A stretch of 40,671 nucleotides of DNA from Synechococcus sp. SB0662_bin_14 (lineage in GTDB: Bacteria > Cyanobacteriota > Cyanobacteriia > PCC-6307 > Cyanobiaceae). The number at the start of each line of letters is the position of its first letter. Position 1 is the stretch's first letter. Shown piece after piece: positions 9,661-14,155 of this stretch. Location: positions 1-40,671 of the forward strand of contig VXNS01000046.1 in NCBI GenBank assembly GCA_009840445.1, in the 5' to 3' direction. A model generated the notes under the pieces. That model did no database searches, had not been told where the DNA came from, and saw only the letters and a program-made list of their open reading frames with translations. A program made the translations under genes and the position numbers.

Positions 9661-10791
9661 GTGGGCGGTCCCACTGCAACCAACCAGCAAGCCAGGGTCG
9701 GCGTATCCCTCCTGTTGGTGGCCGGTCAGCACCATTTGGCCACCCGGGCTTTGCGTCGGTTGATGGCTTTTCTGCAGGATGACCACCGTGAGCTGGACAT
9801 CCATCTCCAGCTCATCGAGCCTGGGCAAAACCCGGAGTTGCTGGAGTTGCACAAGCTGGTGGCCACGCCGGCACTGGTTAAGCTTTCCCCCGCGCCACGT
9901 CAGGTGTTTACGGGCATCACCATGCTGAGCCAAGTGCAGTCCTGGCTGCCGCGCTGGGGTCAGATGGAGCACTTGAACAGCCTGGCCATGCCGGTGATTC
10001 CCTCTCCTGCGGAGGATGGCCACGATAGTCCCAGGGCCTTGGAGCTGGAGGACCAGCTTCTGGTGCTGCGCCAGGAGAACGAGGTCCTGATTGACCGCTT
10101 GCAATTTCAAGAGCGCCAACTGCGCATGGTGGCCCATGACTTGCGCACCCCCATGACCACCACCAGCCTGGCCCTGCAAAGCTTCAAAAGGGGTCACATC
10201 GGCAACGAAGAGCTTCTGGATATCCTCGGGCGCCGTCTCCATGAAATGGAGCAACTGTCCAACGATTTGTTGGAAGTGGGAAGCACCCGCTGGGAAGCCC
10301 TGTTTAACCCCCAGCGCCTCAGCCTCTCCCAGGTCTGCGCCGACGTGCTGCTGGAATTGGAGAAAATGTGGTCCGGCCGCAACCTGGAAATACAAACGGA
10401 TATTCCCAGTGACATCCCTGACGTCTTTGCCGACTCGCGACGCATGCGCCAAGTGCTGCTCAATCTTCTGGAGAACGCCTTCAAGTTCACCCCGGACGGG
10501 GGGCACGTGAAGCTGGGTCTCATGCATCGCACCAGCCAATGGGTGCAAGTGAGCATCTGTGACAACGGCCCCGGGATTCCGGTGGACGAGCAGGAACGCA
10601 TCTTCCAGGATCAGGTGCGTCTGTCCCAAACCTCCTGGAAAACTGCGGGGTTTGGCGTCGGTCTTTCCGTCTGCCGCCGGATTGTGGAAGTCCACACCGG
10701 CAAGATCTGGGTGGTGTCGGAGCCTGGGGAAGGGTCCTGCTTCTACTTCACGGTTCCGATTTGGCGCAACCAGAAACTGCCTGGCCGCTAG
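9661..10791 (+). CDS. sasA: Circadian clock-associated sensor histidine kinase SasA
   Basis: Output kinase of the Kai clock: its KaiB-like N-terminal domain binds KaiC, and it autophosphorylates and passes phosphate to RpaA. The thioredoxin-like KaiB domain covers residues 14-100 (SLLLVAGQHH ... LVATPALVKLSPAPRQVF). A short coiled coil (127-150) leads to the H-box MVAHDLRTP with phospho-accepting His159. The N-box NLLENAFKFTP, G1 DNGPGIP and G2 GFGVGLSVCRRI complete the ATPase domain. About 376 aa, the family length. The start is GTG 9661. An ATG at 9634 in the same frame is cut off by a TGA at 9655-9657, so it cannot be used. Confidence 0.94.
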   Translation: MGGPTATNQQARVGVSLLLVAGQHHLATRALRRLMAFLQDDHRELDIHLQLIEPGQNPELLELHKLVATPALVKLSPAPRQVFTGITMLSQVQSWLPRWGQMEHLNSLAMPVIPSPAEDGHDSPRALELEDQLLVLRQENEVLIDRLQFQERQLRMVAHDLRTPMTTTSLALQSFKRGHIGNEELLDILGRRLHEMEQLSNDLLEVGSTRWEALFNPQRLSLSQVCADVLLELEKMWSGRNLEIQTDIPSDIPDVFADSRRMRQVLLNLLENAFKFTPDGGHVKLGLMHRTSQWVQVSICDNGPGIPVDEQERIFQDQVRLSQTSWKTAGFGVGLSVCRRIVEVHTGKIWVVSEPGEGSCFYFTVPIWRNQKLPGR

Positions 10792-10883: not shown

Positions 10884-10956
10884 GCCCCCATCGTCTAGAG
10901 GCCTAGGACACCTCCCTTTCACGGAGGCGGCAGGGGTTCGAATCCCCTTGGGGGTA
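10884..10956 (+). tRNA. tRNA-Glu (anticodon TTC)
   Basis: A complete cloverleaf of 73 bases. The acceptor GCCCCCA pairs with TGGGGGT, followed by discriminator A. The anticodon stem CCTCC/GGAGG carries loop CTTTCAC with anticodon TTC at 10918-10920. The T arm is AGGGGTTCGAATCCCCT. CCA is not encoded. In cyanobacteria tRNA-Glu also feeds glutamate into tetrapyrrole (chlorophyll, haem and bilin) synthesis through glutamyl-tRNA reductase. Confidence 0.97.
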
Positions 10957-11023
10957 CTTTTCGTGAGGGGATGCTCCGTAAAACCCTCTAACCTCTGGGG
11001 AATCCAGACTTCCAGCAGCTCCC

Positions 11024-11611
11024 ATGAACGTCTTGCTAGCGGCTGGCCCCGAGTCCACAACGCTGTTCACCATCACCGTTCAGGGCTGTGGCGGTTCCTC
11101 CTGGCGGTTTGTGGACCAGCGGCGCATCACGGTTCCCCTGCATCGTCTGCAGTCCACCCATCGGCGACTTCTCCTGGCCGGGGACACCATCCTCTCCGTC
11201 ACCCGTTGCCAGCCCATGGGTGATCCACCGCCGCGGCCCCATCCCGATCCTGCGCCAGGCAACAACGAGTCCCCCTCCCCTGCACCGTTTCTCCTGGCAT
11301 CAGTTCCCCCTGCAGAGGAAACGGAGCCGCCCCAGCCGGTGGAGCAGGTCCCGACGACGCCGGCCCATCAAGGCCAAACGCAAGACCGGACGACAGGAGA
11401 CCTGGCTGGAGAGCATATGATCGTGCTCCTGCTCTCCGTATTTGGTGTCCTGATTCTGTTGGTCCTCCAGGTGATGCGCCACTTGGCTCAACAGTGGGGG
11501 ACTTGCCCCCAGGCTCGGCAGCGTTCCGATCCTGCAGTCGTCGGCATCTGGATGCGGGAATTGGCCAACTTGAGACTTGGCCAACTGTTGAGGCGGGCCA
11601 GCACGTCTTGA
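11024..11611 (+). CDS. CpcD-linker-domain protein with C-terminal membrane anchor
   Basis: About 195 aa in three parts. Residues about 13-62 resemble the CpcD-type phycobilisome linker domain: FTITVQGCGG, then RRITVPLHRLQSTHRRL and LLAGDTILSVTR, matching the family pattern VPxxRLxxxxxRxxxxGGxIxSI. A proline- and glutamine-rich spacer (65-125) follows. A hydrophobic helix, MIVLLLSVFGVLILLVLQVM (about 132-151), then looks membrane-spanning, with a short basic tail. No Pfam00427-type linker domain is present, so it is not CpcG or CpcL. I infer a small protein that could tether a rod end or ferredoxin-NADP reductase-like partner to the thylakoid. It sits between tRNA-Glu and the guanidine riboswitch. 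Confidence 0.65.
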   Translation: MNVLLAAGPESTTLFTITVQGCGGSSWRFVDQRRITVPLHRLQSTHRRLLLAGDTILSVTRCQPMGDPPPRPHPDPAPGNNESPSPAPFLLASVPPAEETEPPQPVEQVPTTPAHQGQTQDRTTGDLAGEHMIVLLLSVFGVLILLVLQVMRHLAQQWGTCPQARQRSDPAVVGIWMRELANLRLGQLLRRASTS

Positions 11612-11677
11612 CCGTTCCGTAGCCAATCACACAGCCCCGTTGATCAAGGTGTCGCAACACTTGGGGTGCGGAAGCGA

Positions 11678-11776
11678 TTTCTAGGGTTCCGGTCCCAATT
11701 CCCCCAGGGGCGTCTGGTCCAAGAGAAATCCACTGGGGTCACCCAGGTGCACGGAGGGACAAAAGCCCGGGAGGCC
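11678..11776 (+). promoter_or_regulatory. Guanidine-I riboswitch (ykkC class)
   Basis: All three conserved blocks of the ykkC/guanidine-I aptamer are present in order and with normal spacing: CTAGGGTTCCG at 11681-11691, CTGGTCCAAGAG at 11714-11725, and ACGGAGGGACAAAAGC followed by CCGGGAG at about 11751-11774. The RNA binds free guanidinium and turns on downstream genes. It lies 25 bases before the guanidine hydrolase start, which agrees with that function. No terminator T-run is visible between aptamer and start codon, so translation control is more likely (see findings). Confidence 0.93.
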
Positions 11777-11801: not shown

Positions 11802-12992
11802 ATGGCCTCGGCGTCTGGCAACAAGGGTCCTTTTCAAGGATTCCACTCCTCGGAAGGCCGGCGGGCCTTGGCCAAAGAACAATATCTTTCCCAGGCGGGC
11901 TGGCGCCAGGAGGTGGAGCGGGGTCATGCTTTCGGTCTGGAGGCTGCCGACAGCATCAGGGACCGCAGCATTTCCACCTTCTCCCGGGGGGAGTTGCCCC
12001 ACTTCGCGGGGATCAACACCTTTTTGAAGGCGCCCTACCTGGAAGACGTGCATCAGGTGGGACGCCATGACGTGGCCGTGATGGGGGTTCCCCACGACAG
12101 CGGCACCACCTATCGCCCGGGAACCCGTTTCGGCCCCCAGGGCATCCGCCAGATGTCCGCCCTCTACACCCCCTACAACTACGAGATGGGGGTGGACCTG
12201 CGGGAGCAGATCACCCTTTGCGACGTGGGGGATATTTTCACCCTTCCCGGCAGCAACGAAAAGTCCTTCGATCAAATCTCCAAGGGGGTGGCCCACGTGT
12301 TTGCCTCCGGGGCGTTTCCCATCATCCTCGGGGGGGACCATTCCATCGGGTTCCCCACGCTGCGGGGAATCTGCCGCCATCTGGGCCACCACAAAGTGGG
12401 CATCATCCACTTTGACCGCCATGTGGACACCCAGGAAACCGACCTGGACGAGCGGATGCACACCTGTCCGTGGTTCCATGCCACCAACATGGTCCATGCT
12501 CCCGCCCGCAACCTGGTGCAGTTGGGCATTGGCGGCTGGCAGGTGCCGCGACCGGGTGTGAAAGTCTGCCGTGAGCGCAACACCAACGTGCTCACGGTGA
12601 CGGACATCACGGAGATGGGCCTGGAAGCCGCCGCCCGATTCGCTGTGGAACGGGCCAGTGACGGGACGGACTGTGTCTACGTTTCCTTTGATATTGACTG
12701 CATTGATGCGGGCTTCGTGCCGGGCACCGGCTGGCCGGAGCCGGGTGGCCTGCTGCCGAGAGAGGCCCTGAAGCTGCTGGAACACGTTGTGCGCAACGCG
12801 ACGGTCTGCGGGCTGGAGGTGGTGGAGGTGTCGCCCCCCTACGACGTCAGCGGCATCACCGCACTGATGGCCACCCGGGTGGTGTGCGACACCATGGCCC
12901 ACCTGGTGATCTCCGGGCAACTGCCCCGTCAGGGGCGACCCGCCTGGATCCGGGAGACCTGTGCCATGGACGTGGGGCAGGACTGGAGGTGA
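11802..12992 (+). CDS. gdmH: Nickel-dependent guanidine hydrolase (ureohydrolase family)
   Basis: Hydrolyses guanidine to urea and ammonia. It belongs to the arginase/agmatinase fold: GGDHSIG (His180), FDRHVDT (Asp205, His207, Asp209) and SFDIDCID (Asp297, Asp299) supply the two-metal site. The FDRHVDT variant, in place of the FDAHxDT of agmatinases, and the long N-terminal part (about 90 residues before VAVMGVPHDSGTTYRPG) match the cyanobacterial GdmH/Sll1077 group. That group uses nickel and needs HypA/HypB-type chaperones. About 396 aa. Context is decisive: a guanidine-I riboswitch upstream, then hypA, hypB and an ABC importer, the same order as sll1077-sll1082 of Synechocystis. The older label for such genes is agmatinase (speB). 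Confidence 0.93.
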   Translation: MASASGNKGPFQGFHSSEGRRALAKEQYLSQAGWRQEVERGHAFGLEAADSIRDRSISTFSRGELPHFAGINTFLKAPYLEDVHQVGRHDVAVMGVPHDSGTTYRPGTRFGPQGIRQMSALYTPYNYEMGVDLREQITLCDVGDIFTLPGSNEKSFDQISKGVAHVFASGAFPIILGGDHSIGFPTLRGICRHLGHHKVGIIHFDRHVDTQETDLDERMHTCPWFHATNMVHAPARNLVQLGIGGWQVPRPGVKVCRERNTNVLTVTDITEMGLEAAARFAVERASDGTDCVYVSFDIDCIDAGFVPGTGWPEPGGLLPREALKLLEHVVRNATVCGLEVVEVSPPYDVSGITALMATRVVCDTMAHLVISGQLPRQGRPAWIRETCAMDVGQDWR

Positions 12993-12995
12993 GCC

Positions 12996-13445
12996 ATGCA
13001 CGAACTGGACATGACCCGCTGCCTCCTTCAGGCCCTGGGGGACTGGCGGGACCAGCACCCCGTTCAGCCCCGTGTGGGCACAGTCCACCTGCTGGTGGGG
13101 GAGTTCACCTGCGTGGAGCCCAGTCAGTTGCGGCTCAGCTTTGCGGCGGCCGTCAAGGACACCTGGCTGGCGGGAGCCCAGCTCAGCATTGTGTCGGTTC
13201 CCCTGGTGGGGGAATGCCTGGTGTGCGGCAACAGCTATCGGCCGGATCCAGCCCGCGGCTATGCCTCCCCCTGTTGCGGTCACCCCATGGAGACCATTCT
13301 CTCCGGCCGTGAGTTGAAGATCCAGCGCATCGACTACAGCCGACCCCCAATCTGCGGTCCACCCGTCCAGGCCAACCCTTGTGCCCAGCCAACGCCTTCC
13401 TTCGCCGATCCATTGCCATGCACATGCCCATCAGCGACACCGTGA
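12996..13445 (+). CDS. hypA: HypA-like nickel metallochaperone of the guanidine operon
   Basis: Delivers nickel to the neighbouring guanidine hydrolase (inference from context); the family normally serves hydrogenase. The N-terminal MHELD carries the Met1-His2-Glu3 nickel site. A zinc-ribbon-like part follows with CLVCG, but the second pair reads SPCCGHP instead of CPxCG, so spacing and one ligand differ from classical HypA. The tail after YSRPP is long and overlaps hypB, giving 149 aa. Translation starts at ATG 12996, four bases after the hydrolase stop, with GGAGG reaching into that gene's end. No hydrogenase genes are in the window. Confidence 0.88.
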   Translation: MHELDMTRCLLQALGDWRDQHPVQPRVGTVHLLVGEFTCVEPSQLRLSFAAAVKDTWLAGAQLSIVSVPLVGECLVCGNSYRPDPARGYASPCCGHPMETILSGRELKIQRIDYSRPPICGPPVQANPCAQPTPSFADPLPCTCPSATP

Positions 13446-14155
13446 ACCTGAGCCTGCTGGCGGCCAACGATCAGCAGGCCCGGCACAACCGCCAGCACTT
13501 TGACGACTGGGGTCTGTTCTGCATCAACGTGATGAGCAGCCCTGGCGCCGGCAAGACGGTCCTGCTGGAGCAGGCCCTCCGCACCCTCCATGGCAAGCAG
13601 GCCATGGCCGTGCTGGAAGGGGACATGGCCACCCAACTGGATGCCCAGCGGCTGGCGGGTCTGGGGGTTCCCGTGGTGCCCATCACCACGGGGCGGGCTT
13701 GCCATCTGGACGCCGCCATGGTCTCCACCGGCTTGCAGCTTCTCCGGCAGCAATGCGATCCGGCGTCTCTGGATCTGCTCTGGGTGGAAAACGTGGGCAA
13801 TCTGGTGTGCCCGGCGGAGTTTGCCGTTGGCGAGCACTGCAAGCTGGCCTTGCTGAGCGTCACGGAAGGAGACGACAAGCCACTCAAGTACCCGGTGATG
13901 TTTCGTGAGGCGGACTGTGTACTGATCACCAAAGTTGACCTCCTCCCCCACGTGCCTGCCGATCCGGAGCGCATGGGCCACCACCTTCGGCAGATCAATC
14001 CCCGCTGCGGGGTGTTCCCGGTGTCGGCCCTCACCGGCGCCGGCATGGGGGATTGGCTGGCCTGGCTGGGGCAACAACTGCTGGCCAAAGGCCCACCACC
14101 GGAATCCGCCCCGGCAACCAGCGGCCTGAAGCCACCAGCCCTGACGGCCACCTGA
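13418..14155 (+). CDS. hypB: HypB-like nickel-inserting GTPase of the guanidine operon
   Basis: SIMIBI-class GTPase that works with HypA in nickel insertion. The P-loop is SSPGAGKT, the metal-sensing site is in TTGRACHLDA, the WVENVGNLVCPAEF segment is the family signature, and ITKVDLL is the guanine-specificity motif. No histidine-rich nickel-storage N-terminus. About 245 aa from ATG 13418, which overlaps the end of hypA by 28 bases; an earlier TTG in frame (13379) is less likely. Dedicated copy for the guanidine hydrolase by context. Confidence 0.92.
   Translation: MHMPISDTVNLSLLAANDQQARHNRQHFDDWGLFCINVMSSPGAGKTVLLEQALRTLHGKQAMAVLEGDMATQLDAQRLAGLGVPVVPITTGRACHLDAAMVSTGLQLLRQQCDPASLDLLWVENVGNLVCPAEFAVGEHCKLALLSVTEGDDKPLKYPVMFREADCVLITKVDLLPHVPADPERMGHHLRQINPRCGVFPVSALTGAGMGDWLAWLGQQLLAKGPPPESAPATSGLKPPALTAT

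Follow-up and report, generated by a model that had tools for sequence, protein, structure and literature searches.

The cyanobacterium Synechococcus sp. SB0662_bin_14 carries, within the 40,671 nucleotides of contig VXNS01000046.1 analysed here (the window), a short gene that a first-pass annotation described as encoding a CpcD-like domain, a proline-rich spacer and one hydrophobic helix, with no rod-linker domain. How does such a protein arise, and what could it do at the photosynthetic antenna? We denote the gene X; its parts and the features discussed with it are listed in Table 1.

Table 1. Coordinates of gene X, its parts, its upstream neighbours in the window and a related fusion gene elsewhere
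Feature	Position	Strand	Basis
X, whole gene	11024..11611	+	ORF; 195 aa plus stop; 9 full-length orthologues; pN/pS 0.57
FNR-type CpcD domain, residues 1-62	11024..11209	+	FNR N-terminus identity, profile matches, fold
Pro-rich spacer, residues 63-131, mostly disordered, length variable	11210..11416	+	low pLDDT 75-122; in-frame length changes
Predicted membrane helix, residues 132-151	11417..11476	+	hydropathy in 9/9 orthologues; model helix 124-160
C-terminal tail, Arg-rich, model-helical	11477..11608	+	sequence and model; shorter in 4 orthologues
tRNA-Glu(TTC)	10884..10957	+	ancestral petH locus marker
sasA, KaiB-domain histidine kinase	9661..10791	+	ancestral petH locus marker
GrpE-like fusion	L087:3215-4357 and L042, strain LMB bulk15M, contig G007:C59	- (L087)	

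Gene X is a constrained coding frame

The open reading frame starts with ATG, is coding from 11024 to 11608 and ends with a stop codon that extends to 11611. It is intact in all nine orthologues at a pooled pS of 0.38, and the insertions and deletions that distinguish the orthologues in the spacer preserve the reading frame. Codon-by-codon comparison of the nine orthologues gave an overall pN/pS of 0.57 (0.49-0.66), with values of 0.37 (0.26-0.51) in the CpcD domain, 0.73 in the spacer and 0.56 in both the helix and the tail, and in a codon bootstrap the ratio was below 1 in every region. The N-terminus of ferredoxin-NADP reductase (FNR) has a pN/pS of 0.46 in seven genomes of the same clade, so that the constraint on the X domain is as strong. 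These substitution patterns indicate that X is under purifying selection and is not a chance frame. Four of the orthologues (L008-L011) end early, at (V/A)NC, and do not have the Arg-rich tail. The tRNA-Glu gene ends 66 bp before X, with sasA further upstream, and the only promoter-like site that we found lies upstream of the tRNA.

The N-terminal domain is of the CpcD type

When the window's protein was used as a single query, nothing significant was found in Pfam, NCBIfam, PHROGs or the PDB sequences; the first lead was a non-significant match (E 1.7) to the FNR of PDB entry 8HFQ. Since single-sequence searches gave no significant match, profiles were needed. The CpcD profile, PF01383, matches seven of the nine orthologues, all below its gathering cutoff (best 6e-4; the highest score, 20.5 bits, compares with a cutoff of 27), and leaves the window copy unmatched; the clade's own FNR is also below the cutoff, at 14.9 bits. 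A profile built from the nine orthologues retrieved the FNR chain of 8HFQ, a CpcL-phycobilisome structure (3.8e-5), and one built from the orthologues together with FNR N-termini retrieved CpcD (1.9e-8) as well as FNR and rod linkers. The CpcD match that the first-pass annotation had proposed as a check of its claim thus exists at the level of the family.

In an AlphaFold2 model, residues 14-62 form the beta-beta-alpha-beta arrangement of the CpcD fold with pLDDT 85-92, a loop near residues 21-30 excepted. The whole model has a pTM of 0.30 and consists, beyond the domain, of a disordered spacer and helices, disorder being predicted for most of residues ~63-122. The top Foldseek neighbours of the model are nearly all CpcD, ApcC, FNR or rod-linker chains, with the FNR of 8HFQ in second place, at modest E-values of which none is below 0.001. 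The core residues identical in all nine orthologues include P38, R41, L42 and G53. A Pfam search of the window protein found no Pfam00427 rod-linker domain, and neither Pfam nor NCBIfam matched an FAD- or NADP-binding domain within its 195 residues. Orthologues, profiles, model and hydropathy therefore all bear out the annotated layout: X is confirmed as a CpcD-type domain that leads, through a Pro-rich and mostly disordered spacer, to a single predicted membrane helix, without a rod-linker domain.

X occupies the ancestral locus of petH

The search for relatives of X returned a second class of matches, which lie inside frames of ~400 aa and are restricted to their first ~100 residues. These frames encode FNR (identified by Pfam in one frame from the genus of X and one from another genus, and by NCBIfam). 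Over the ~73 residues compared, the N-terminus of X shares 38-41% identity with the FNRs of its own genus and 29-35% with those of three other Cyanobiaceae. In a tree of 37 N-terminal domains, all X proteins and one fusion protein form one group (support 96/95), and a branch supported at 97/91 parts X and the clade FNRs from 18 other Cyanobiaceae FNRs. This tree, from which CpcD was left out, is based on 73 alignment columns and drew a long-branch warning from the tool, so that gene order was needed as further evidence.

Gene order points the same way. Outside the genus of X, both sasA and petH, the gene for FNR, could be placed in seven Cyanobiaceae genomes (G013, G014, G017, G026, G031, G033 and G264); in every one of them petH follows sasA at a distance of ~1 kb, and tRNA-Glu stands between the two. 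In the sponge-associated clade that carries X, it is X that comes after the tRNA-Glu, and petH is found on another contig; in the two genomes read, G000 and G001, this relocated petH is preceded by an M48-type peptidase and followed by zwf (names by sequence reading). An opposite-strand gene, SRPBCC-like by sequence reading, also lies between sasA and petH in G017, and its homologues adjoin sasA in G026 and G032; we did not find it in the seven sponge-clade genomes searched. As judged from sequence and gene order, the X domain and the N-terminus of the clade's own FNR are paralogues. The simplest account would be that petH was duplicated or rearranged in the stem of the clade, and that its 5' part remained where it was and acquired a new 3' part.

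This same CpcD module of the FNR type has also been joined to a different partner. In one strain, LMB bulk15M, it forms part of a protein with a GrpE-like domain in two copies (a weak GrpE match), whose gene adjoins an Hsp70 gene. In two other strains the relatives of this GrpE-like protein have no CpcD module, which suggests that this domain behaves as a transferable module.

In the genomes searched, X was found only in a genus of sponge symbionts

Of the ten genomes of the Candidatus Synechococcus spongiarum genus, a genus of sponge symbionts, nine carry X; a search of 390 further genomes of the family (E 1e-5) did not find it. The family-search matches outside the genus are mostly the ~400-aa frames, and the 18 that were taken out were all checked as petH; one (G309) is a 137-aa frame cut by the contig end. 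The match in G264 is a small soluble CpcD protein and not X, and a match in an unrelated genome of the class (G047), with stop codons inside it, was set aside as chance. Viral contigs contained no relatives. A class-wide search returned frames of FNR, CpcD and linker length, and none of the odd-length frames that were inspected has a membrane helix.

The tenth genome of the genus, G001, rated 95% complete, is without X. Because sasA and the hydrolase gene downstream (guanidine/agmatinase-type) are missing from the same assembly, this absence is uninformative: the block may have been lost, or the assembly may have a gap there.

Pfam00427 linkers occur in all ten genomes of the genus and phycobiliproteins in all four that were tested. 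The carriers of X thus have phycobilisome genes, in agreement with the first-pass annotation, which had regarded presence in organisms lacking phycobiliproteins as evidence against its proposal. In the window's genome PF01383 finds only ApcC and rod linkers and no free-standing CpcD gene, in a search to which X and FNR are invisible as well. This genome also encodes a Pfam00427 linker with a hydrophobic C-terminus (hydropathy 2.02; L085:607-1416, minus strand, contig G000:C6), a candidate CpcL.

X compared with FNR, CpcD and CpcL

The closest known counterpart of X is the N-terminal CpcD-like domain of FNR (FNR-L / FNR3D, petH), with which it shares sequence, tree position, fold, N-terminal place and a flexible linker. 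X differs from FNR in having neither the FAD nor the NADP domain and in that its spacer leads to a membrane helix, and the true petH is a separate gene. CpcD, the soluble rod-capping linker, is likewise a stand-alone CpcD-type domain without Pfam00427; however, CpcD is small and soluble, whereas X has 195 aa with a spacer and a predicted membrane helix, and in the X-only profile search X was nearer to FNR than to CpcD. CpcL (CpcG2), the membrane linker of the CpcL-phycobilisome, resembles X in its predicted anchor on a phycobilisome-type protein, but it carries a Pfam00427 domain and anchors the membrane-near end of the rod, whereas X has only a CpcD-type domain, which in FNR binds the distal end.

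We were not able to find a described linker with the layout of X, either among the class-wide matches inspected or in a literature search, beyond whose reach most subscription journals lay. The first-pass annotation, to which this layout was not familiar from the described linkers, is supported on this point as far as these searches extend; it missed the FNR origin of the domain. What is new in X is the architecture in which a known docking domain is placed.

The membrane helix leaves two orientations to weigh

Mean hydropathy reaches 2.98 at residues 133-151 of X and ranges from 2.29 to 2.98 across all nine orthologues, so that a membrane helix is predicted in every one. All nine carry a net charge of -1 to -5 on the N-terminal side of the helix and of 0 to +4 on its C-terminal side. 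By the positive-inside pattern, these flanking charges predict the CpcD domain on the non-cytoplasmic side, away from the phycobilisomes, the opposite of the CpcL orientation with its cytoplasmic linker domain. The sequence shows no signal peptide, and the stretch ahead of the helix exceeds 130 residues; for these two reasons we consider a cytoplasmic N-terminus somewhat more likely.

Possible functions of X

In 8HFQ the CpcD domain of FNR binds the distal end of the rod (PMC10322944). PMC9319322 describes this domain as required for the retention of FNR on phycobilisomes, the position of FNR as important in PCC 7002 for the return of electrons to the quinone pool, and the purpose of the docking domain in the main phycobilisome type as unclear.

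As X carries the docking domain of FNR, the same rod site is expected as its target. We tentatively favour the reading that a duplicated antenna-docking domain at the old petH locus, having acquired a spacer and a helix, caps and tethers rods and displaces FNR. The domain would insert into the open end of an antenna rod, at the site of FNR's own CpcD domain, and the flexible spacer and the helix would tether this rod end to the membrane. X would thereby cap rods, keep the antenna close to the membrane and take the place of FNR on some of the rods. In favour of this reading are the identity of the domain, its constraint and invariant core residues, the phycobilisome linkers and phycobiliproteins of the carriers, the lack of a free-standing CpcD gene in the PF01383 search and the transferable behaviour of the module; against it stand the charges around the helix and the failure of PF01383 to detect the window copy. 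The wider proposal, that X represents a new class of phycobilisome attachment protein, a membrane-anchored rod cap that arose by FNR duplication in sponge symbionts, fixes rods to the membrane and sets the share of FNR on the antenna, is possible, and we put it forward with greater reserve.

The first-pass annotation had offered three functions. Capping of rods at the membrane would be the leading one, with the flanking charges counting against it. Since the domain descends from FNR, the suggestion that X holds FNR-like partners is better restated as mimicry of FNR, and possibly competition with it, at rod ends. For the third, anchoring of a reduced antenna to photosystem I, we found no specific support.

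The charge pattern favouring an N-out/C-in orientation in all nine orthologues, together with the divergence of the window copy below Pfam detection, would also fit a CpcD fold that no longer binds phycobilisomes and has been repurposed, for example for a role at the envelope or facing the host. We regard this as unlikely: a stretch of over 130 residues ahead of the helix would need to be moved across the membrane with no signal peptide seen, the core motif of the CpcD domain is conserved, and X has been found only where phycobilisome genes exist. Rather doubtful, too, is a regulatory decoy, which would mainly displace FNR from rods and raise the free or membrane-near FNR, the helix serving only to localise it. 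A close paralogue of the FNR docking domain would be expected at the same site, and the position of FNR matters for electron return in PCC 7002 (PMC9319322); yet a soluble cap would be enough for this, and the conservation of helix and spacer points to a role for attachment. That X is a decaying fragment of petH, an accidental open frame without function, is highly improbable despite its position where petH once lay, the presence of petH elsewhere, the fast-evolving spacer and tail and the shorter tails of four orthologues, as the nine intact frames at a pooled pS of 0.38, the constraint in every region and the conservation of a membrane helix with no counterpart in FNR all argue against it.

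X offers a docking domain split from its enzyme, under selection and predicted to be membrane-anchored, and therefore a direct way to ask what docking does. If the tethering interpretation is true, X would provide a second route, besides CpcL, for tying antenna rods to the membrane, and an instance of lineage-specific antenna rewiring in a symbiont of sponge tissue.

Downstream of X

A Guanidine-I riboswitch is located at 11670-11775 of the window and is followed, at 11802-14155, by an agmatinase-family gene, hypA and hypB. These genes look like a nickel-dependent guanidine hydrolase operon, and not like one for agmatinase.
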